40,655 nucleotides of DNA. Source: Planctomycetota bacterium. GTDB lineage: Bacteria > Planctomycetota > UBA11346. Positions 25,617 to 38,047 of the stretch are shown one piece after another (within the stretch, counting starts at the first letter, position 1; each line of letters begins with the position of its first letter). A model generated the notes under the pieces. That model saw only the letters and a list, made by a program, of their open reading frames with translations, ran no database searches and was not told where the DNA came from. The position numbers and the translations under genes were made by a program. Location of the stretch: NCBI GenBank assembly GCA_007695355.1, contig REDX01000142.1, positions 1 to 40,655 on the forward strand, given 5' to 3'.

Positions 25617-27811
25617 AGCAGTCCTCCTCGACGACGGAGCCACCACTCGGCGGCCAGCAGCCCCAGCATCAGCCCCAGGAGCCAGCTGCTGACCCACAGC
25701 GGTTCGCGGCGGTCGGCAATTTCCTGGCGTTGACGCCATTGCTGCACCAGCTGCGGCAGCCTCCCAAGGGATGCAAGGTCGAGACTAGCACCATCGCTCA
25801 ATAGTGCCAGCGATTCCATGAGATCGGGGTCGGCGGAGAGATTGCGCAGCTCGCGGGAGGAGCTGACCACCGTAATCGCCTGTTCTAACAGCTCGGGATG
25901 GCCATGGGAGCTGTGCAGCTGCAGCTGATAGGCGCCGGGGGGGAAGGGGCCCATGGAGGCGCGGTAGCGACCGCCCTCAATGGCCGCCCCTTCAACCTCC
26001 TCCAGCACCGCGCCATCGCCGTCCACCAGGCGCAGTAGGGGGCGGTAGGGCAGCTCTGGCCCCAGCCGCGAGCGCACTTCCACCCGCAGCGCCTCCTCAT
26101 CGCCAATCAGGCGGCGTTCGGCGCGCAGGGCGACATCATAGCCGGCGAGGAAATCGCCGCCGGCCTGCAGCCAGCGCAGCATGCCCGACCAGAAGCGATC
26201 ATACACCACCTCGTCGAATTCATTGCGCTGGCCGTGGAAGCCCCAGCGCCACAGCCCACCGGCATTGACGGTGACCACCCGCCCCTGGCCGAAGGGCTGC
26301 CAGGCGACCACCACCGGGGCCTGCTCGGCATCGCCATCGCCGGCCCGGGCGAGGGCGGTGGCCAGGGGTTTCAAACCCCGGCTGCGCTCAACTCGATCGA
26401 GGGGCCGCATACGGGCCAGGGCTTCCTGGGGGCTCAGGCTGGGGTCGAGATCGAAGATCGGCGCCAGCTGGCCAGCGGCGCTCAGGCGCAGCGGGGTATT
26501 GCCCACAGAACCCTGGCCCCAGAGCAGGGGTTCGAGATTGGCCAGTTCCGGCGAGCGCCCATCGTAGGGCCGCCCGCGGTGGAATACCAGGCTGCCACCG
26601 TGGTCGGCGACAAAGTTGGTGAGCATCTGCAGCTGCTCGCTGGAGAGCAGGCCATCGCTGCCGCGGCCAAGCATAACCACATCGTAGGCGCTGAGGGCTT
26701 CGTAGCTCTCGGGGAAGCCCGGCTGCTGGGTGGCGGCGGGGTCCGAGCCCTCGATCAGGGTAAAGGTGCGCTCATCGCCCAGGCGATACCAGGCGTGCAG
26801 GCGCACCGTGGGGTGATTGGAGAGGCTCTGCACCAGGAACTTACTATCCCAATGGGGCTGTCCCTCCAGCAGCAGTACCCGCACCGGTCCGGGCACCGCC
26901 CGGAGGTGAATGCTGCGCTGATTATTACTGGTATCGGCCTCGCCGGCGAGGGGCGGCACCACCACCCGCAGGCTGCGCTCGCCCCGCTCGGGGGCGCTGA
27001 CCCGGGCGGAGACGGTGGCCATGCCCGCGGCCCCTGGGGCGACTTCTAGGGATTCCAGCACCGTGCCGTCCTCATCCTGGATCTCCACCGGGATAATGCG
27101 GTGATCAAAGCCCACCTGATGCACGGTGGCGGCAATGGCCACGGTTTCGCCGGCAAAGGCCAGCACTTCGCTGCCCGAGGCCTCCACCCAAATATCCCGA
27201 TGATCCACTTCGTCGCCGGTGGTCACGGTCCAGATCGGCACCCCGCGGGCGAGGGCCAGGCGCGCCGCCTCGGGGGCGCCGGGGTGGGTCTCCCGGCCGT
27301 CGCTTATGAGGAGAATGCCGGCCTGCTGGCTGCGATGGGCCTGCTCGTCGATAAGACTGCTGAGGGCGAGGCCGATATTGGTGCCCTGGCCCTGGGGCCG
27401 CTGCCCGTCGAGGCCCTCGAGGCTGAGGGGGCTGAGTTGGCGGTCAAAACCCCGCAGATCGAGCTGGAAGTGCTCGCTGAGCCGGGGCCAGGCCGCGCTC
27501 AGGGCCTGGGTGGCGGCGCTAAAACGGGATACCCCACCCACATCTTCTACCTCCATGCTTTGGGAGGTATCGAGGAGCACCGCGAGGGTGGGCTTGCCCA
27601 CCGCCCGCTCGGCCCGCACCGCGGTGGGATTGAGGACGATAAAGCCGAGGCAGCAAATCACTCCCAGGCGCAGGGCTAAGCAGGCCAGGGCAATGGGCCG
27701 GGGCAGGCCCTGGCGTTCCCGCCAGGCGCGCAGAACCGCCAGGCCGGCGAGGCCGACCAGGGCCGCCGCAATCAGGCCCTGATCCCAGGGTGGCAACCAC
27801 ATCCAGTTCAT
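25613..27811 (-). CDS. VWA-containing membrane protein of the MoxR/Bat type
   Basis: TM N-terminus; LAVLLDTSQSMEVEDVGGVSRFSAATQAL (MIDAS DxSxS); GTNIGLALSSLIDE; C-terminal TM WVSSWLLGLMLGLLAAEWWLRRRGGLL; ATGA overlap upstream. Confidence 0.8.
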   Translation of the reverse strand: MNWMWLPPWDQGLIAAALVGLAGLAVLRAWRERQGLPRPIALACLALRLGVICCLGFIVLNPTAVRAERAVGKPTLAVLLDTSQSMEVEDVGGVSRFSAATQALSAAWPRLSEHFQLDLRGFDRQLSPLSLEGLDGQRPQGQGTNIGLALSSLIDEQAHRSQQAGILLISDGRETHPGAPEAARLALARGVPIWTVTTGDEVDHRDIWVEASGSEVLAFAGETVAIAATVHQVGFDHRIIPVEIQDEDGTVLESLEVAPGAAGMATVSARVSAPERGERSLRVVVPPLAGEADTSNNQRSIHLRAVPGPVRVLLLEGQPHWDSKFLVQSLSNHPTVRLHAWYRLGDERTFTLIEGSDPAATQQPGFPESYEALSAYDVVMLGRGSDGLLSSEQLQMLTNFVADHGGSLVFHRGRPYDGRSPELANLEPLLWGQGSVGNTPLRLSAAGQLAPIFDLDPSLSPQEALARMRPLDRVERSRGLKPLATALARAGDGDAEQAPVVVAWQPFGQGRVVTVNAGGLWRWGFHGQRNEFDEVVYDRFWSGMLRWLQAGGDFLAGYDVALRAERRLIGDEEALRVEVRSRLGPELPYRPLLRLVDGDGAVLEEVEGAAIEGGRYRASMGPFPPGAYQLQLHSSHGHPELLEQAITVVSSSRELRNLSADPDLMESLALLSDGASLDLASLGRLPQLVQQWRQRQEIADRREPLWVSSWLLGLMLGLLAAEWWLRRRGGLL

Positions 27812-29901
27812 CGCCGGCCCTCCCTTCCCGGCTGCCGCCGGCGCCAGCAGGCGGTGAGCAGCATCTCCAGGGCCAAGAAAGCCGCCGCCAGGGCCCATAG
27901 CCAGGGCCACAGCACCCTTGGCCGGCCGGCCAGAGCGAGGCGGCGATCATCCTCGTAGACGAAGACCGGGGTCTCGCCGTCGGGGTCGATGAGGTCGACG
28001 GCGGCAATGGGCCGGGTATCGCTCTCCCGGGGATCCAGGTTTACCACCCCATAGCCCACCAGCTCATCGCCAGCCTGCACCGCATACAGCCCCGGCTCGG
28101 CCACCGGTGGCAGGGCAAGGCGGGTTTGCCGGCCGCGGGCGAGAATCTGGCTTTCCACCGGGGCGCCACTGGGGGCCCGCACGCGAATGTCTTCCGTCCC
28201 CCCATGGTCCACCAGCAGCGACCAGCTGCGGCCGGGGAAGGCCTGGGGCGCTTCCCCCTGGCTGCGCAGATAGAGCAGGGATTCGTGGAGCAGGGCGGGG
28301 AAAAGGGGGGTGCCAACGAGATTGCTCAGTTCTGGTTCCACCGGCATATTCATCAGCACCAGGCCGCCCCGGCCAAACGGTTCCACCAGCAGCGCCGGGC
28401 TGGCATCGGCGTGGCGCAGATAGGTGGCCTCGGCATGGGCGGAGGCGGTTTGACCCTGGCGATAGCGGTGGATGCGCAGGGGCGCGAAGGGCTGTTCATC
28501 CAGGCCGGTAAAGGCGCGCAGCGGCCCCCGCGGCAGGCCCTGAATCAGTGGCGCCTGGCCCTCGGCGTGGCGCTGGGCCTCGCCGGGATGCCAGGGTAGA
28601 TTGAGGGCACCTTCGCTGGCGCCGATGACCTGGGCCAGGGCCTGGTGGCCATCGCCGCGCTCGCGGCCATCGCAGACCACAAAGAGCACGATGCCATCGG
28701 CCAAGCGGCGGGCGAGCAGGGCGGCCACCTCGCCGGGCAGATGGAGCGGCGGCACCAGGGCGATGACCGCCGCCGTTTCCAGTTGTTGGCGATCCAGGGC
28801 CTGGGCCTGGGCGCGCTGGGCGCGGATGCCGCTGCGGCCATCGCTCAGGGGATCGAAGGCCCGGGCGACAAAGGCGGCGCCGCTGGCGGCCTCGTGCAAG
28901 GGGCTATCGCTGACCACCAGGGCTTCCAGCCGCGGCGCCACGCTCAGGACAAAGCGCCGGACATCATCGCTGGGCATGGCATCGCTGGGCTCTAGGCGAA
29001 TCTCGCCGGGATGCACGCCTACCGCCGGCTGGCCGATGGAAAAGGAGACCTGACTTGAGGCATAAGCGCCCACCGCCACCTGCCGCCGTAAAGAGGCGCC
29101 GCTGGTTTCCAGTACCACGCTAAGCTCGCGGCCGCGGGGCGCGGCATTGAAGATGCTTACCTCGACGGTGGCGGTCTCGCCGGCCACCGGATGGCTGGGG
29201 CGCAGGGAAATATGGGTAATTCCGGCATTCTCCACCGCTTCGCTACTGACCGGTCGAATATCCACCTGCACCGAGCCGAGCTGGCTAAAATCCACCGCCC
29301 CCCAATTGCTGCGCTGGAGATCGCTAAACACCACAATCCGCCCCGAGCCCTCTAGCATCTGCGCAGCCAGGGAAAGGGCGGCGGCGGGATCAACGCCCTC
29401 GTAGGTCACGGTGGCCTCGCGCAGACCCTCGTGCAGGGCGGCGAGATTGGTTGAGAGGGCGGGAAGGATGGGCTGCGGCCGGGCGGCGGCGAGAATCACC
29501 GCCGCCGAACTTCCGCGCTCAAGCCGGGTGAGGTAATCGGCGGCCTGGGAGCGGGCCTGGGTAAAGAGGGGGATGCCGCCTTGGGTGGCTCCCATGCTGG
29601 CCGAGGCATCGACGATCACCACCGCCCGCTGGCTCTGCTCTGGGGCGGCCTGGCCCCCGCGCTGCCAGAGGGGCCAGGAAAAGGCCAGTACCAGGGCGAT
29701 GAGGGCGAGGCAGCGCAGGCAGAGCAGGATAATGGTGCGCAGGCGGTCGAGGGCCTGCCGTCCGCCCCCGGCATCGAGCAGCAAACGAAAGGCGGGAAAG
29801 CGCAGGGCCACCGGCTTGGGCCGGGTCAGGAAGTGGATGAGCACCGGCAGGGCCGCTGCCAGGAGGCCAATGAGCATCAAGGGATAGACGACCAGGGGCA
29901 T
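27808..29901 (-). CDS. BatA-domain / VWA-containing membrane protein
   Basis: YPLMLIGLLAAALPVLIHFLTRPKPVALRFPAFRLLL is the BatA N-terminal signature; AVVIVDASASMGATQGGIPLF MIDAS; C-terminal TM. Confidence 0.85.
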   Translation of the reverse strand: MPLVVYPLMLIGLLAAALPVLIHFLTRPKPVALRFPAFRLLLDAGGGRQALDRLRTIILLCLRCLALIALVLAFSWPLWQRGGQAAPEQSQRAVVIVDASASMGATQGGIPLFTQARSQAADYLTRLERGSSAAVILAAARPQPILPALSTNLAALHEGLREATVTYEGVDPAAALSLAAQMLEGSGRIVVFSDLQRSNWGAVDFSQLGSVQVDIRPVSSEAVENAGITHISLRPSHPVAGETATVEVSIFNAAPRGRELSVVLETSGASLRRQVAVGAYASSQVSFSIGQPAVGVHPGEIRLEPSDAMPSDDVRRFVLSVAPRLEALVVSDSPLHEAASGAAFVARAFDPLSDGRSGIRAQRAQAQALDRQQLETAAVIALVPPLHLPGEVAALLARRLADGIVLFVVCDGRERGDGHQALAQVIGASEGALNLPWHPGEAQRHAEGQAPLIQGLPRGPLRAFTGLDEQPFAPLRIHRYRQGQTASAHAEATYLRHADASPALLVEPFGRGGLVLMNMPVEPELSNLVGTPLFPALLHESLLYLRSQGEAPQAFPGRSWSLLVDHGGTEDIRVRAPSGAPVESQILARGRQTRLALPPVAEPGLYAVQAGDELVGYGVVNLDPRESDTRPIAAVDLIDPDGETPVFVYEDDRRLALAGRPRVLWPWLWALAAAFLALEMLLTACWRRRQPGREGRR

Positions 29902-29912
29902 CAATGCGTCCT

Positions 29913-30818
29913 TTAACGAACCCGTCCCAATAGACAGCTCTTGAGGAAGGGATAGGGATCGAAGTCGGTGCGCGCGAGGTAGTATTCACAGCCGCGGGTG
30001 GCGGCGCCGGCCTGCACCAGATCGAGGTGGGCCTTGATCGCCGCGGCGTAGGACTGGCGCACCACATCCACCTCGGCGGTAAAGGAACCGCCGCTGCCCT
30101 CGCAGTCGATAAAGCGGGCAACGCTGAGCTCCGGCAGCTCTAACTCCTCAGGGTGCAGGACTTGGAAGAGCAGCACATCATTGTGGGTGCGCCGAAAGAG
30201 ATCGACGCCGCGCCAAAAGCTCTCGTCGATACCCAGGAAATCGGAAAAAATAACCACCACCCCGCGCTTGCTGCTGCGGCTAAAGATCTCCCCCATGCAG
30301 TGGCCGAGATCCGTATCCCCGCTGGCCTTGGCCTGGCCCAGGCGCGCCACCAGGGCGGCGAGGTGGGTCCAGCCAGCCCCGGCGCGCAGATGATCCTGCA
30401 GGCGGTCGCTGCACAGGGAGAGGCCCACCTGATCGCCCTGGTCCACCACCAGATAGGCGAGGGCAGCGGCGAGGCGGCTGGCATAGGCCAGCTTGCTTTC
30501 GGTGCGGGTGACGGCGCCGGCGTATTCCATGGAACCCGAGCTATCGATGAGCAGATGGCTGAGCAGATTACGTTCAGCCTCGTAGAGCTTAATGTAATAC
30601 TTATCCGCCCGCGCCACCACCTTCCAGTCGATAAGCCGAATATCATCGCCGGGGACGTACTGGCGATAATCGGCAAATTCGACGGCGGTGCCGCGGAAGC
30701 GCGAGCGATGGGGGCCGGCAAAGCTGCCCTCGGCGGTGCCGCGGGGCAAGAGCCGGCAGCGCCGCAGCATTTCCATGCGCGCCAGATCAAGATAGGGGTG
30801 ATCGAATGCAGCCGGCAT
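29913..30818 (-). CDS. DUF58 domain protein
   Basis: GPHRSRFRGTAVEFADYRQYVPGDDIRLIDWKVVARADKYYIKLYEAERNLLSHLLIDSSGSM is the DUF58 signature. Confidence 0.95.
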   Translation of the reverse strand: MPAAFDHPYLDLARMEMLRRCRLLPRGTAEGSFAGPHRSRFRGTAVEFADYRQYVPGDDIRLIDWKVVARADKYYIKLYEAERNLLSHLLIDSSGSMEYAGAVTRTESKLAYASRLAAALAYLVVDQGDQVGLSLCSDRLQDHLRAGAGWTHLAALVARLGQAKASGDTDLGHCMGEIFSRSSKRGVVVIFSDFLGIDESFWRGVDLFRRTHNDVLLFQVLHPEELELPELSVARFIDCEGSGGSFTAEVDVVRQSYAAAIKAHLDLVQAGAATRGCEYYLARTDFDPYPFLKSCLLGRVR

Positions 30819-30837
30819 ACTGAACCTTTCAGAGCCT

Positions 30838-31842
30838 TCAGACCGCGGCCGGTTGTCCCACCTGCTTAAGCAGGTGGGCGATAATATCCTTGCTCTCCAA
30901 CCCTTCACCCAGGGCATTGTAATTGGGAACGATGCGATGGCGCATTACCGCCAGGGCGACGTCCTGCACATCCCGTACTTCCGGGCTGGGACGACCGTCA
31001 AGCAGGGCCACGGCGCGGGCGGCGGTAATCAAAAACTGGGAGCAGCGGGGACCGGCGCCCCAGTGGACATACTTGCGGACGAAGGCATCGGCACTGTCGT
31101 CGGCTGGCCGGGTGGCGGTGACCAGGGCCACCGCATAGGCGAGCACCGGTCGCGCCACCGGCACCTGATCGACGATATCGGCAAAGCCGAGGAAGTCATC
31201 GGCCCCGGCCACCGCGGGCAGCTCGGGAATCTTCATCCGCGTCGGCATGGCGGCGATATCGATCTCCTGCTCGCGGCTGGGATAATCAAGGTGGACGCTG
31301 AGTAAAAAGCGGTCGAGTTGGGCCTCGGGCAGGGGATAGGTGCCCTCTTGCTCGATCGGGTTTTGGGTGGCGACGACGACAAAGGGCGCCGGCAGCGGGT
31401 AGGTTTGACCGCTCACCGTCACCATGCGCTCTTGCATCGCTTCCAGCAGGGCGGCCTGGGTCTTGGGCGGGGTGCGATTAATCTCATCGGCGAGGACCAG
31501 GTTGGCAAAAATCGGGCCCTGGTGAAAGACCAGGCGGCGCTCACCATCGGGGGTGGTCTGCAGTAATTCGGTGCCGGTAATATCCGAAGGCATGAGATCG
31601 GGGGTGAACTGCACGCGATTGAACTGCCAGCCCAGGGATTTGGCCAAGGTTTTCACCATCAGGGTTTTGGCCAAACCGGGCACGCCCACCATAAGGACAT
31701 GGCCGCCGCAGACCATGGCGGTGGCGAGGAGGCGCACGGCCTCATCCTGGCCCACCACGACCTTGGAAATATTGGCGCGCAGGGCCTCGTAGCATGCACG
31801 CAGGCGGGCGATGGCGGCCTCGGGGCTGGACGAATCTTGCAT
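30838..31842 (-). CDS. MoxR-family AAA+ ATPase
   Basis: VVVGQDEAVRLLATAMVCGGHVLMVGVPGLAKTLMVKTLA; VLADEINRTPPKTQAALLEAMQERMVTVSG; ATQNPIEQEGTYPLPEAQLDRFL. Confidence 0.97.
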   Translation of the reverse strand: MQDSSSPEAAIARLRACYEALRANISKVVVGQDEAVRLLATAMVCGGHVLMVGVPGLAKTLMVKTLAKSLGWQFNRVQFTPDLMPSDITGTELLQTTPDGERRLVFHQGPIFANLVLADEINRTPPKTQAALLEAMQERMVTVSGQTYPLPAPFVVVATQNPIEQEGTYPLPEAQLDRFLLSVHLDYPSREQEIDIAAMPTRMKIPELPAVAGADDFLGFADIVDQVPVARPVLAYAVALVTATRPADDSADAFVRKYVHWGAGPRCSQFLITAARAVALLDGRPSPEVRDVQDVALAVMRHRIVPNYNALGEGLESKDIIAHLLKQVGQPAAV

Positions 31843-32008
31843 CGTGAACTGCTTTCCTGTTTGGAGGTGCATGGGCAGTGAGCGGGGAGCACGGGGGACG
31901 GATCCCCGCGAGGTCTTGATCTTAAGGTTTAAAGGCGGACGCGATCACCTTGGCGGGGGCTGGCTATGGTAGGCATAGATAAGGAAGTAAAGGGCTAAGA
32001 TGATGCTG

Positions 32009-33235
32009 TCATCGAGTGACTCCGAGGGGCTCTGCAGCTGCGGAAGAACTTGCCCCAGCGCGATCCCCGGGTGGCCAGTTTAAGCCCTGCCACAGCCACC
32101 AGGCCATCAGCAGGAAGACCAGCGCCAGGAGAAACTTGGTCAGACCCCACCAGCGATTACCCCAGCCGGCCAGGGTCTGCGATCCCATTCCGAAGTAAGC
32201 GCCGATGACGATGAGGAGGATGGGCAGGATAAAGAGCAAATTGTACCACAGGAGTTTGATTAGGGCTTCGACATTGCCGCTGTGCACTAGGCCGGCGATC
32301 ACCGGGAAGTAGACCGCCCCCGTGCACAGGCTCTCAATCAGGCTGACCAGGGCCCCGGCAACAAAGGCGCCGGCGCAGATCGAGCGCGCAGAGAGGCCCT
32401 GGCGCATCAGGCTGGTCATGCGGTGGCGCAGCCGCTTCGGCACCTTGAGCAGCATTTCGCCGGCCCGGCGCTGCCGCCAGGAAAGGGAGGCATCCCAGCA
32501 GCAAACCAGGGCCCCAACGATACAGATGGTGAAGGCAAGCCACGAAATCAGATCGGAGAGCAGATAGAGGTGGCGGAGTTGCTGAAGCACCCCGTACAGC
32601 AGCAGGCCAATGGCCAAATAGGCAACGAAGACGCCAGCGGCAAAGCCCAGCCCGCCGCTGAGCACCTCGCCCCGGGGCCGACCGCTGGCAACCAGCAGGC
32701 TTATCAGCATAACAATGGTGGCGAAGGCACAGGGATTAACGCTATCGGCGAGGGCGGCGAGGCTAATCGCCAGCCAGCCCAGGCGGCGGCTGGCGGCATC
32801 CTCTTCGCCGGCCCTGCGGCGCAGTGGTCCCAGGGCTTCAGGATTTTCCAGCTCTGCGCTAATCATCTCCTGCCAGCCGGCGATAATCGCCGGGCCCCCG
32901 GCTAAATGCTGGCGCGGGCTAAAGAGATTGAGGGGCTCAATAACCAGGCCTTCCCAGCCGTACTGGTCGAGCATGGCCATCATTCGGGCAGCGCCATCGC
33001 CACGGCTGGTATCAATGCGGGTGAGCGCAATGGCCTCGCCGAAATGGGCCTGTGCCGCCCGCATGGCGCGCAGGGCATCGACGCAGTGGCCGCAGCCAGG
33101 ATGATAGAAAAACCACAGCGGCAGCCCATCCCCGCCCTCCTCGGCCCCAGCTCGGGGGACCAAGCAAAGCATGAGTATGAGGCCGCAGAACAGGGCTGCG
33201 GCGAAAAAACGCAGGCGGGCAAGGTGACGGATCAC
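32009..33235 (-). CDS. Thioredoxin-like (CGHC) domain fused to a CcdA/DsbD-type transmembrane domain
   Basis: LPLWFFYHPGCGHCVDALRAM then ALADSVNPCAFATIVMLISLLVASGR...GLGFAAGVFVAYLAIGLLLYG; further TMs. Confidence 0.85.
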   Translation of the reverse strand: MIRHLARLRFFAAALFCGLILMLCLVPRAGAEEGGDGLPLWFFYHPGCGHCVDALRAMRAAQAHFGEAIALTRIDTSRGDGAARMMAMLDQYGWEGLVIEPLNLFSPRQHLAGGPAIIAGWQEMISAELENPEALGPLRRRAGEEDAASRRLGWLAISLAALADSVNPCAFATIVMLISLLVASGRPRGEVLSGGLGFAAGVFVAYLAIGLLLYGVLQQLRHLYLLSDLISWLAFTICIVGALVCCWDASLSWRQRRAGEMLLKVPKRLRHRMTSLMRQGLSARSICAGAFVAGALVSLIESLCTGAVYFPVIAGLVHSGNVEALIKLLWYNLLFILPILLIVIGAYFGMGSQTLAGWGNRWWGLTKFLLALVFLLMAWWLWQGLNWPPGDRAGASSSAAAEPLGVTR

Positions 33236-33415: not shown

Positions 33416-33467
33416 TGTCCCTCTAGTATCGGCCGCCATGTCCCAACCGGTATTTTAGGAGCAGTAT

Positions 33468-34664
33468 ATGCGACGCTATCTATCCCTCCTTGCCGCCATG
33501 GTCTTAATCGGGCCTCTGGCCAGTGCTGAATTCGAGGAGCCCTTTAAGGTCATGATTGGCAATGAGCCGATCGATGTTCCCGTTGGCCATGCTGCGCCGT
33601 TTATGGCGGATATGACCGGCAATGGATTGCCCGATCTTTTGGTTGGCCAGTTTGGCCAGGGCCGGGTGCGGCTCTTTCCCAATGTCGGAGAGCCCGGTGC
33701 CCCGCGTTTTCGCGAGTGGAGCTACCTCGAAGCGGATGGTGCACCGGCGGCAGTACGCGCCGGTTGATGCGTCGGTTTTGTTCCACAGGTTGTGGACATC
33801 ACCGGTAATGGACGCGGCGATCTCATTTCCGGTTCGTGGCCGGGACAGCTCTCCCTCTTCCCCCGCCTTGAGGACGGCAGCCTTGGTCCGGCCCAGCAAT
33901 TATTACACGACGATGGCAGCCCGGTAAAGCCCGGCAGCGCGACCACCGTGTACGCCGTCGACTGGGATGGAGATGGACTCCTGGACTTGGTCTGCGGCAA
34001 TATCCGCGGCGAGGTATGGTGGTATCGCAATGTCGGCAGTGCCAGCAAACCGCGCTTTGCCGAAGGCGAGCGGGTGCTCGCCGATGGTCATCCCTTTACC
34101 GTCCCCGGCGGCGACTCCGGGCCGGTGGTGGTGGATTGGAATGGCAATGGCCGTTTGGATCTGATCGTCGGCTGCGGCGATGGCAGCGTGCGCTGGTATG
34201 CCAACCAGGCCGAGCAGGGGCCGCCGGTATTGGCGGCTGGGGAGTTACTTATCCCTGCCCAGCGCGAAGGCCCCCGGGGAAGCCGGGTAAAAGTGCATGT
34301 GGTGGATTGGAATGGCAATGGCCATCAGGACCTTTTGCTCGGCGATTACCGCCGCCACCCACCGCAATCACCCAGCCCCGAGGATCTGGAGCGCTCTCCG
34401 GAATGGCAGCAGGAGCTTGCCCAGGTGCAAACCCGTCTGCGGGTTTTACGCCGGCAGGCCTTGCGCGAGCTGCGCAGCCAGGATGGGGGCCCGCCGGCGG
34501 ATACGGACGCAGCCCTAGAGGCGGCCCTCGGTGAGAACGAGGAATACCAAGCCGCCCAGGCCCGCGAGGCCGCCCTCACCGGCAAGCTCAATGGCCTCAG
34601 ACCCCGCGCCCGCACCAGCGGCCACGTGTGGGTCTTCCTGCGCCGGACCGATGCCGGCGAATAG
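33468..34664 (+). CDS. Candidate selenoprotein: secreted FG-GAP/VCBS beta-propeller read through an in-frame TGA at 33765-33767 (Sec100, followed by Cys101)
   Basis: Track ORFs 33468-33767 and 33792-34664 share a frame; nothing but the TGA separates them. Signal peptide MRRYLSLLAAMVLIGPLASA. Blade motifs on both sides: MADMTGNGLPDLLVGQF / VVDITGNGRGDLISGSW / AVDWDGDGLLDLVCGN / VVDWNGNGRLDLIVGCG / VVDWNGNGHQDLLLGD. Confidence 0.85.
33773..33804 (+). promoter_or_regulatory. Putative bacterial SECIS element
   Basis: CGGT...[TCCACA-GGT-TGTGGA]...ACCG: 6-bp perfect upper stem with GGU loop starting 20 nt after the TGA, plus a 4-bp lower stem. Confidence 0.8.
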
Positions 34665-34850: not shown

Positions 34851-35615
34851 TCAGCGATGGGCCTGGTAAAGGTCCACCGTCATCGGCAGGCGGTTGGGCG
34901 AGTGGCGCAGGGGGGAGAGGTCGATGGCATTATCTTCGACCAGCCAGGCGATAATGGCGCGGTCTAGTTCTGGAATGCCAGTGCTAGAGCCGCGGGCAAA
35001 GTCGGCGCTTACAATGCGGCTGCGGTCGTGCTCAATCCAGAGGACAAAGGTGCGCCGGGGCAGCCGGTCCCCATAGATCGGTTTCCAATCGCTGCGGTAC
35101 TTGCGCAGCAGAAAGCCCATGAGGAAATAATTGGCTTCCTGCTCTTGGCGGAGTTGGGTTTCCCGCTGATCCATGCCGCCCCCGCGCGGGCCTTCCTCGG
35201 GCAGGGGCAGGGCCATGGCCGGTGGCAGCTGCACGCTTTCAATGGCCGAGCCCTCGCCACCGGCATCGCCGGCGCCGCGGCCAAGGCGATGGTCTTCGTC
35301 TAAAAGCGGGCGCAGGGCCGGGCCTTCATCGCTTGTTGGCGCCGGCAGATCGGGCAGGGCGGGGAGGAGGCCCGGCTCAATCGCCGCCACCGCTTCCTGG
35401 CTAAAGACAATGCGGGTGGGCGGGGCTTCATGTTTTTGCGAAGCGGGGAGGATAGTTGGCTCTCGCTGCAGCCAGGAGAGCAGGCTGTCCCAGCCGAGAA
35501 TGAGGAGAATGGCGAGGAGATGGCCACCCAGGCTCAGCAATTGGCAGCGTCGCAGCAGGGCATCGCGAATGCCGAGGGCGGGCAGCTGCCAGGGGGCCAC
35601 GGCCTGTCTATTCAT
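34851..35615 (-). CDS. TonB-like protein (N-terminal TM, Pro-rich linker, TonB-like C-terminal domain)
   Basis: LGGHLLAILLILGWDSLLSWL TM; Pro-rich segment; C-terminus RRTFVLWIEHDRSRIVSADFARGSSTGIPELDRAIIAWL. Confidence 0.5.
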   Translation of the reverse strand: MNRQAVAPWQLPALGIRDALLRRCQLLSLGGHLLAILLILGWDSLLSWLQREPTILPASQKHEAPPTRIVFSQEAVAAIEPGLLPALPDLPAPTSDEGPALRPLLDEDHRLGRGAGDAGGEGSAIESVQLPPAMALPLPEEGPRGGGMDQRETQLRQEQEANYFLMGFLLRKYRSDWKPIYGDRLPRRTFVLWIEHDRSRIVSADFARGSSTGIPELDRAIIAWLVEDNAIDLSPLRHSPNRLPMTVDLYQAHR

Positions 35616-36699
35616 GGGAGGTCCGCCAGCGCCCGTGGCGTTCAAAGTGGTCAAGGGCATCAAGGATCATGGAGACCGCGTTTTCTTCCACCGCAATCAT
35701 CAGCCGGTCGGGATTGGCGACGAAAATACACACCCGCTCGGGCTCGTGCCAGCCAATGCTGGCGGTTGCCCGCTGAAGGCCGGCGCTGATCAGGGCGCCA
35801 TCGTGGCTGGCGGTGAGCTGGGGGATGGGCAGAACGATTAAGCGCCGGCTCAGGAGGGGGTGGGCGCGGCGGGCGATGGCGGCCAAATCGACGCAGAGGA
35901 CACCGTCCACCCATTCGGCGGTAAAGCCTTGCTGGCGCAGGTGGCGGGCGAAGGCGGCGACGCTGTGGACCTGGAGTTCAATCGCTCGCTCGGCCAGCGG
36001 CAGGGCGGCGACGCTGGGCGAGACGCTGAGGGAAACCTGCAGAGCCTGGGCCTGGTCGATCATCACCTGGGCCCAGCGGCGGCTGCGCACCGGCGGCAGA
36101 TTGTGGTGCTGGTCCGCTTCGGCAAAGCTGGGGATATCGCGCAGGGGCCGGGGCGATGGCACCATCAACTGGCCCTGTTCGAGGGCGGCCAATACTTGGG
36201 TGAGCTGCTCATGGCCGGGTGGCGGCAGGGTTGCCGTCCATTGGCCGGTCCAGGGGATGGAGGCTAGGCCGCTGCCGCTGCGGCCCAGCCAGGGGGTCAT
36301 AATCTGGCGCACCACCACTTCCAAATCGTGGCGGTTGCGCATGGATGAGGAATAAGAGCGGACGCTTAAGGTGCCGGCCCCCATGCCCGCATCGCGGGCA
36401 ATGAGGTGGTAGCGCCAGGCCGCGGCTTCAAACCACCACCAGCGGTCGCTGGCATGGGCCATGGCTTGGAGGGCGGCGCCGATGGGGGCTTCGTGCAGGG
36501 TCAGCCACAGCCCCGGGCCCTCGAGGCTGCTGGCATCGGGCAGGATATCCAGGTCGAGGACGGTGCCGATGAGCCCGCTGACGCTGCCCATGCGCTCATT
36601 GGCGAAGTGGGTGCTGATACGATCGCCCTCGGCGGAAAATAGGTGCCAGCCTGGGGCCAGCACCAGCAGCAGCAGGCAGCATCGCAGGCACAGCGCCAT
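35608..36699 (-). CDS. Secreted STN/secretin-N-like hypothetical protein
   Basis: Signal peptide MALCLRCCLLLLVLAPGWHLFSAEG; STN-like 'LWLTLHEAPIGAALQAMAHASDRWWWFE' and later 'VDGVLCVDLAAIARRAHPLLSRRLIVLPI'. Confidence 0.5.
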   Translation of the reverse strand: MALCLRCCLLLLVLAPGWHLFSAEGDRISTHFANERMGSVSGLIGTVLDLDILPDASSLEGPGLWLTLHEAPIGAALQAMAHASDRWWWFEAAAWRYHLIARDAGMGAGTLSVRSYSSSMRNRHDLEVVVRQIMTPWLGRSGSGLASIPWTGQWTATLPPPGHEQLTQVLAALEQGQLMVPSPRPLRDIPSFAEADQHHNLPPVRSRRWAQVMIDQAQALQVSLSVSPSVAALPLAERAIELQVHSVAAFARHLRQQGFTAEWVDGVLCVDLAAIARRAHPLLSRRLIVLPIPQLTASHDGALISAGLQRATASIGWHEPERVCIFVANPDRLMIAVEENAVSMILDALDHFERHGRWRTSHE

Positions 36700-36703
36700 A
36701 GCT

Positions 36704-38047
36704 TTAGCCTTCTCGGCTCCGGCGATGGGCTTCCACCGCTTCGTAGACCGCATCGATACTGGGCTTGAGGACCTGGGGCTGATTGGCGCGTTCGGGCTGC
36801 ACATCGGCCAGCTTATTGCCGTGGTAAGCAGCTTTGGTTTCGGCAAACTTCAGGCCGTGGGCGGTGCTAATGACGACAATGCGATCGCTGGCGGCAAAGG
36901 CGCCGCGCGCCGCGTACTGCTCTACCGCCGCCAGGGTAACGCCGGTGTGCGGACAGGTGAAAAAGCCAGCGGCATCGGCCCGGGCGCAGGCTTCGGCCAG
37001 CTCGCTCTCCGAAGCATGGGCAACTTCGCCGCCGTGGGCAATGAGGCCCTTCATCGCTTTCGGCACCGATACCGGATCGCCAATACGAATGGCCGAGGCC
37101 TGGGTGGCAGCCGCCACCACCGGCTGGAAACCCCGCCAGCCATTCTGGAAGCAGCGATAGAGGGGATCGGCGGCGGCGGCCTGGCAGCACACCAGCTTGG
37201 GCATGTGCCCAATCACCCCCAGCTCTAAGAGCTCTTCCAGGCCCTTATAGATGGCGGCGGTATTGCCGAGGTTGCCGCCGGAAATAAAGATCCACTCCGG
37301 TACTTCCCAGCCCAGTTGCTGAATAATTTCTATGGCCACCGTTTTCTGGCCTTCGATGCGCAGGCTATTCATGGAGTTGGCCAAATAGAGGCGGCCATCA
37401 TGGGTGAGCTCGCGCACCACCTTCATGCAGCCATCAAAATCCGTATCCAAAGCCAGGGTAAGGGCGCCATTGGCCAGGGGCTGCACTAACTGCGCCGGCG
37501 AGACCTTCGCGTTTGGCAAGAGCACCACCGCCGGAATCCCCGCTGCGGCGGCATAGGCCGCCAAGGCCGCTGAGGTGTCGCCGGAGGAGGCGCAGGCAAC
37601 GCCCAAAAAGTCCTGTTTGCCGGAGCGGATGAGGTGATTGACCTGGCTCACCAATACCGTCATGCCCAGGTCCTTAAACGATCCGCTATGGCTATTGCCG
37701 CACTGCTTGATCAGCAGCTGCTCTCTGTCCAGGCCCAGCCCTTCGGCATAGCGGCCCATGGGCAGCAAGCTGCTATGGCCCTCATCTAATGTTACCACGT
37801 GCTCGTCGGGAATGTCCGGCAGCACCAGCTCTTTCTTGCCCCAAATCCCGGAATGGAAGGGCGTCGGCGTGCGCGGGCCCCAGCGGCTATCCCACAGTGC
37901 CTTGAGCTTGTCCGGGCCTTGGGCCTTGAGCGAGCTGAGATCGTGCACCACCTCTAGGAGATTCCCCGCTGGCGAGCGGTAGATCACCTCATCCAAAGAC
38001 CAGTGACCTTCGCCGGTGATGGCATCGCGAAACCAAGAACGGGACAT
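36704..38047 (-). CDS. thrC: Threonine synthase
   Basis: IKQCGNSHSGSFKDLGMTVLVSQV (PLP lysine), ACASSGDTSAALAAYAAAAGIPAVVLLP, FISGGNLGNTAAIYKG. Confidence 0.95.
   Translation of the reverse strand: MSRSWFRDAITGEGHWSLDEVIYRSPAGNLLEVVHDLSSLKAQGPDKLKALWDSRWGPRTPTPFHSGIWGKKELVLPDIPDEHVVTLDEGHSSLLPMGRYAEGLGLDREQLLIKQCGNSHSGSFKDLGMTVLVSQVNHLIRSGKQDFLGVACASSGDTSAALAAYAAAAGIPAVVLLPNAKVSPAQLVQPLANGALTLALDTDFDGCMKVVRELTHDGRLYLANSMNSLRIEGQKTVAIEIIQQLGWEVPEWIFISGGNLGNTAAIYKGLEELLELGVIGHMPKLVCCQAAAADPLYRCFQNGWRGFQPVVAAATQASAIRIGDPVSVPKAMKGLIAHGGEVAHASESELAEACARADAAGFFTCPHTGVTLAAVEQYAARGAFAASDRIVVISTAHGLKFAETKAAYHGNKLADVQPERANQPQVLKPSIDAVYEAVEAHRRSREG

Follow-up and report, generated by a model that had tools for sequence, protein, structure and literature searches.

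Our findings suggest that a planctomycete gene which conventional open reading frame (ORF) prediction cuts in two is a single gene for an exported selenoprotein of an apparently undescribed family. It occupies positions 33468-34664 on the plus strand of the window, the 40,655-nucleotide contig REDX01000142.1 of a Planctomycetota bacterium (assembly GCA_007695355.1, GTDB UBA11346). The in-frame TGA at codon 100 almost certainly encodes selenocysteine (Sec), judging from comparative sequence analysis. Given selenoprotein status, the redox mechanism proposed below for the resulting Sec-Cys pair is likely. The full statement, an exported, new-family selenoprotein with a Sec-Cys redox centre, is held with the same good but incomplete confidence.

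The gene and its translation product

The ATG at 33468, the TGA at 33765-33767, and the TAG at 34662-34664 all share one frame. Translation with TGA taken as U gives a 398-aa read-through product whose only U is residue 100; the next codon is TGC (33768-33770), for the vicinal Cys101. The initial annotation had noticed that the ORF list breaks the gene at the TGA, into 33468-33767 and 33792-34664, and had argued for a single propeller gene spanning it. Both points were confirmed, the second by the shared frame and by a match of Pfam FG-GAP_3 to the whole of it (4e-28, 98.2 bits versus a curated cut-off of 26.9). Homologues also align over the whole length of the 398-aa frame. The GTG at 33792, listed as the start of the second ORF, is an internal Val codon that doubles as the 3' arm of the hairpin described below. 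As had been noted earlier, the first half carries the translation and export signals. A Shine-Dalgarno sequence, AGGAG (33457-33461), stands 6 nt 5' of the ATG, and the N-terminus MRRYLSLLAAMVLIGPLASA-EF, judged by eye from the letters, is a probable signal peptide (residues 1-20, 33468-33527) in a region of low pLDDT.

The selenoprotein gene is isolated between minus-strand genes, and Pfam gave no match for those flanking it at 32009-33235 and 34851-36846. At 27808-31872, also on the minus strand, genes for a MoxR AAA ATPase, a DUF58 protein, and BatA/VWA proteins lie in a row and form an aerotolerance-type operon.

Evidence for recoding of the TGA

Searching 294 genomes of the phylum yielded matches in 148, and nearly all strong matches contain one in-frame TGA. 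From these, 91 homologues were extracted, 90 of which cover the site. As the initial annotation had anticipated, the column holds either TGA (87 homologues) or Cys (TGC/TGT, 3 homologues), with a gap in the remaining one. The next residue is Cys in 86 of the 87 TGA forms and Arg in one (L058). At least four sub-families carry the feature, in the contexts PTG-U-CVGFGPQ, TT-U-CISFxPQ, GVW-U-CTSSTPQ, and NW-U-CIGMxPQ.

A single-protein scan of genome contigs returned no match, and a degenerate DNA pattern including TGA-TGY was used instead. Scanned over GTDB r220 genomes, with matches checked by HMM, this pattern gave at least 120 matches, and every listed one was a family member. Among the matches listed were Verrucomicrobiota (Akkermansiaceae, Verrucomicrobiales) and Armatimonadota (Fimbriimonadaceae), as well as the closed MAG CP054190 and the chromosome of Planctomycetes bacterium Poly30 (CP036434), a cultured strain. 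The pattern found no member in viral contigs. Overall, the same TGA occurs in more than 200 homologous sequences of Planctomycetota, Verrucomicrobiota, and Armatimonadota. Chance is excluded because the TGA is present in 87 of 90 homologues and all of the listed pattern matches are members. A sequencing error is not credible, since the TGA is kept in a cultured isolate and in closed genomes.

A bacterial SECIS hairpin follows at 33782-33796 on the plus strand, with its stem formed by 33782-33786 and 33792-33796 and its loop, AGGUU, at 33787-33791. Counting the first base after the TGA as base 1, bases 15-19 pair with bases 25-29 around a loop of the form A-G-(T/G)-T-N. Across a set of 57 diverse sequences, the stem cells are 98.2% paired, versus 24-50% when the partner is slid by 1-3 bases. 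Cells changed on both sides number 25, compared with 8.7 in shuffles, and none of 500 shuffles scored as high. Compensatory change is seen at three of the five stem pairs, and RNAalifold agrees. Base 18, a Pro wobble position, covaries with base 26, the second base of a Val/Ala codon: the codon combinations are CCA/GTG, CCG/GCG, and, in L227, CCC/GGG. Base 27 is a wobble position free to vary, yet 173 of 174 distinct sequences have G there. The sole A is matched by T at base 17, and pairing of 17 with 27 is never lost among them. As a control, G is the last base of just 31-39% of the other Val/Ala codons that precede Asp. All three Cys forms have C at base 27, which breaks the hairpin pair.

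The window RNA folded into a hairpin that has a bulged U and a loop of GGU, resembling the E. coli fdhF SECIS. The case for a SECIS rests on covariation, since the fold of the single sequence stands out only mildly (z -1.2) and Rfam, searched at E up to 1, matched no SECIS family here. By this comparative measure, the hairpin 15-29 nt past the TGA has the properties of a bacterial SECIS and is independent evidence of TGA recoding.

The source genome (3.46 Mb, 86% complete) contains the Sec decoding machinery: a tRNA-Sec with anticodon UCA (76 bits), selA (457 bits), selD (334 bits), and selB (246 bits), which shares the contig of the selenoprotein gene and lies about 1 kb from it. The selA, selB, selC (tRNA-Sec), and selD genes, on which the initial annotation had made its reading depend, are therefore all present. 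Formate dehydrogenase alpha is the commonest bacterial selenoprotein, and its model TIGR01553 found no match in this 86%-complete genome despite the full machinery. Contamination of the MAG by this contig was considered and rejected. The neighbouring MoxR gene shares 79% identity with one in a genome of the same family, and GC content is fairly uniform, so the contig appears native to the family.

Possession of the TGA form was also linked to selA across the 294 genomes. A strong selA match was found in 66 of 68 TGA-form genomes, the 68 being a hand tally, versus 124 of the 226 others (Fisher p 1e-12). The two TGA-form genomes lacking one are both MAGs with completeness near 77%. Above-cut-off selA matches were also obtained in each of the 12 named carriers examined, which span three phyla. 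Of the three Cys forms, L049 and L055 come from one family, whose two genomes match selA weakly, below the cut-off.

These lines of evidence decide between the recoding of the TGA and two other readings of it. That it is a real stop, arising from a pseudogene, a sequencing error, or two separate ORFs, agrees with the split in the mechanical ORF track. Nevertheless, this reading is refuted by the conservation of the TGA in isolate and closed genomes alike, the conservation of the protein on both sides of it, the SECIS covariation, and the selA linkage, and we give it next to no credence. The continuation of in-frame codons after the TGA would equally suit insertion of Trp, Gly, or Cys, through reassignment or near-cognate read-through. 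However, homologues and the MoxR paralogues of the same genome use TGA as their terminal stop, which bears out the earlier view that genome-wide reassignment of TGA is unlikely. An in-frame TGA reported in those paralogues proved on checking to be their normal stop. With a UCA-anticodon tRNA-Sec present and Cys alone replacing the TGA, insertion of another amino acid is extremely improbable, and decoding as Sec is strongly preferred.

The history of the site differs from what was first proposed. The initial annotation had pointed to FG-GAP proteins of planctomycetes and relatives with a GCCVGF motif here and had taken the TGA to replace the first Cys of a former Cys-Cys pair. By the counts, 87 TGA versus 3 Cys, such Cys proteins are not the norm. 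In a tree built without the Sec column, Cys requires two changes, each nested among Sec forms, which reverses the proposed replacement: Sec looks ancestral and Cys derived by two replacements, in a sample collected by a TGA-form query in which distant Cys forms may be under-represented.

The Sec-Cys site and its proposed chemistry

An AlphaFold model was built with 44 aligned members and the Sec column entered as C (pLDDT 94.2, pTM 0.87). Sequence and model both contain five FG-GAP repeats, corresponding to a five-bladed propeller. FG-GAP/integrin-alpha propellers (PF13517, PF01839; PVL lectin, CRTAC1, KICSTOR ITFG2) share these repeats and the DxDxDG loops. However, the window protein has five repeats rather than seven and a low TM, at most about 0.4 to the listed structures, and does not have the seven-bladed integrin-alpha-type fold. 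It also differs in its Sec-Cys site and in a helical hairpin (residues 304-375, 34377-34592, plus strand) that the model inserts in blade 5 before the last strand. PDB searches by sequence and by fold returned generic FG-GAP propellers only.

Among aligned members, P44, G65, the Sec column, C101, D110, and the repeat Asp/Gly residues are invariant. In the model, Sec100-Cys101 lies in a loop just before the inner strand 105-109 of blade 2. The conserved His/Tyr41, Asp/His216, and Arg273 likewise precede inner strands. Because the FG-GAP metal loops follow that strand, we infer from the strand order of the model that the pair is on the opposite face, by the channel. Sec-Cys probably sits opposite the DxDxDG metal loops, at the entrance of the central channel and next to His/Tyr41, Asp/His216, and Arg273.

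The main clue to function comes from fusions. In three homologues (L211:2235-4508, L219:3749-5995, and L029:520-2571), Pfam and in-frame TGA codons reveal two-Sec fusions in which a propeller with U-C is followed by DsbD_N and then by a peroxiredoxin. DsbD_N (PF11412) matched at 1.5e-9 in L219 and 4.5e-9 in L029, and just below the cut-off in L211. The peroxiredoxin (PF00578, AhpC-TSA) matched at 1e-29 to 1e-33, and its peroxidatic position is itself TGA (TPG-U-T). L091, a member of another sub-family, carries DsbD_N at 3e-12. The same motif was seen, in sequence without Pfam support, in L150 and a longer stretch of L054. Electron transfer to extracytoplasmic thiol proteins is the established role of DsbD N-terminal domains, and the source genome encodes a DsbD_TM protein and a separate DsbD_N protein. 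The fusions seen belong to two sub-families distant from the window protein; some of these relatives carry both the DsbD N-terminal domain and the peroxiredoxin in one chain, whereas the window protein is a propeller alone. Gene neighbourhoods showed no conserved partner across homologues, so the case for a redox function depends on a small number of fusions.

In the mechanism that we propose, the UGA at codon 100 would be decoded as Sec by SelB and tRNA-Sec, steered by the downstream SECIS, as the comparative evidence indicates. The vicinal Sec-Cys would then most likely cycle between a selenol/thiol and a selenenylsulfide state, carrying out two-electron redox chemistry outside the cytoplasm. 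The DsbD_N fusions suggest that electrons could come from a DsbD-type carrier, and together with the Sec-peroxiredoxin they point to a possible role in peroxide or protein-thiol repair. A selenenylsulfide redox role is plausible for the pair and is strengthened by these fusions. With the fusions and the DsbD_TM and DsbD_N proteins in the genome, we favour an extracytoplasmic selenol/selenenylsulfide centre.

The main rival accepts a true selenoprotein and assigns Sec-Cys and the nearby His/Asp to a soft-metal site (Cu, Hg, or Zn), serving metal trafficking, detoxification, or a metal-dependent oxidase instead of thiol/selenol redox. FG-GAP loops do bind metal, His/Tyr41 and Asp/His216 are conserved, and the metal-handling selenoproteins MerB-like SaoL and HgcA are listed with a CU motif. 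On the other hand, relatives are fused to DsbD_N and peroxiredoxin rather than to metal transporters, and no metal-resistance neighbours are conserved. We consider a soft-metal site unlikely, with perhaps one chance in several. Less probable still, at a level we would call slight, the pair may be structural or a specialised nucleophile, such as a rigid vicinal ring shaping a ligand site, in a propeller that serves chiefly for binding or adhesion. Binding is what the structurally characterised FG-GAP propellers (integrins, PVL lectin, CRTAC1) do, and two further points count against a redox pair: a vicinal Cys-Cys could play a structural part in the Cys forms, and one member (L058) has Arg in place of the Cys. 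Even so, the nearly exclusive use of costly Sec over Cys suggests selenium-requiring chemistry, and the redox centre remains our preferred reading.

Relation to known selenoproteins

A 2026 list contains 119 prokaryotic selenoprotein families or subfamilies, and the majority of the characterized ones are thioredoxin-like (PMC13188914). An FG-GAP, VCBS, or propeller entry is absent from it. Its adjacent Sec/Cys motifs are mostly CU, and the sole GxUC entry is a CopZ-like 2Fe-2S protein (PMC13188914). No NCBIfam release 20 model scored above its cut-off for the window protein. A full-text search for selenocysteine with FG-GAP or VCBS repeat gave no paper; subscription papers and NCBI nr were outside its scope, and an undetected description is possible. 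FG-GAP is also absent from the main text of a study of Sec genes in two planctomycetes (PMC4807772). The earlier impression of a selenoprotein family not yet described thus agrees with the list, NCBIfam, and the full-text searches.

The new family resembles catalogued selenoproteins in its recoding by SelB, tRNA-Sec, and SECIS, its Cys homologues, and its redox-type Sec motif. Thioredoxin reductase carries a C-terminal Cys-Sec, and a vicinal selenenylsulfide is possible in both proteins. Here, in contrast, the order is Sec-Cys, the pair lies in a propeller loop, and the protein is not a flavoprotein.

The family adds a fold absent from the 119-family list, in phyla with little-studied selenoproteomes, and within it Sec is usual and Cys exceptional. 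Any pipeline that takes TGA as a stop will break up or shorten every protein of the family. The fusions open the function to direct testing and suggest that Planctomycetota have a selenium redox pathway outside the cytoplasm. A broader proposal, to which we give about an even chance, is that these are the first beta-propeller selenoproteins: a new, ancient, near-obligately selenium-dependent enzyme family, widespread in Planctomycetota, whose Sec-Cys active site lies at the mouth of the propeller and receives DsbD-type electrons outside the cytoplasm. Its presence may be among the main reasons for these lineages to retain the Sec trait.

Two loci deserve separate mention. In L058, Sec-Arg (TGA CGC) replaces Sec-Cys with the SECIS intact, providing a natural test of the need for the vicinal Cys. 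In L071 (G155:C1:2881000-2884800), two selenopropeller genes with the GVW-U-CTSSTPQ motif lie close together on the same strand.
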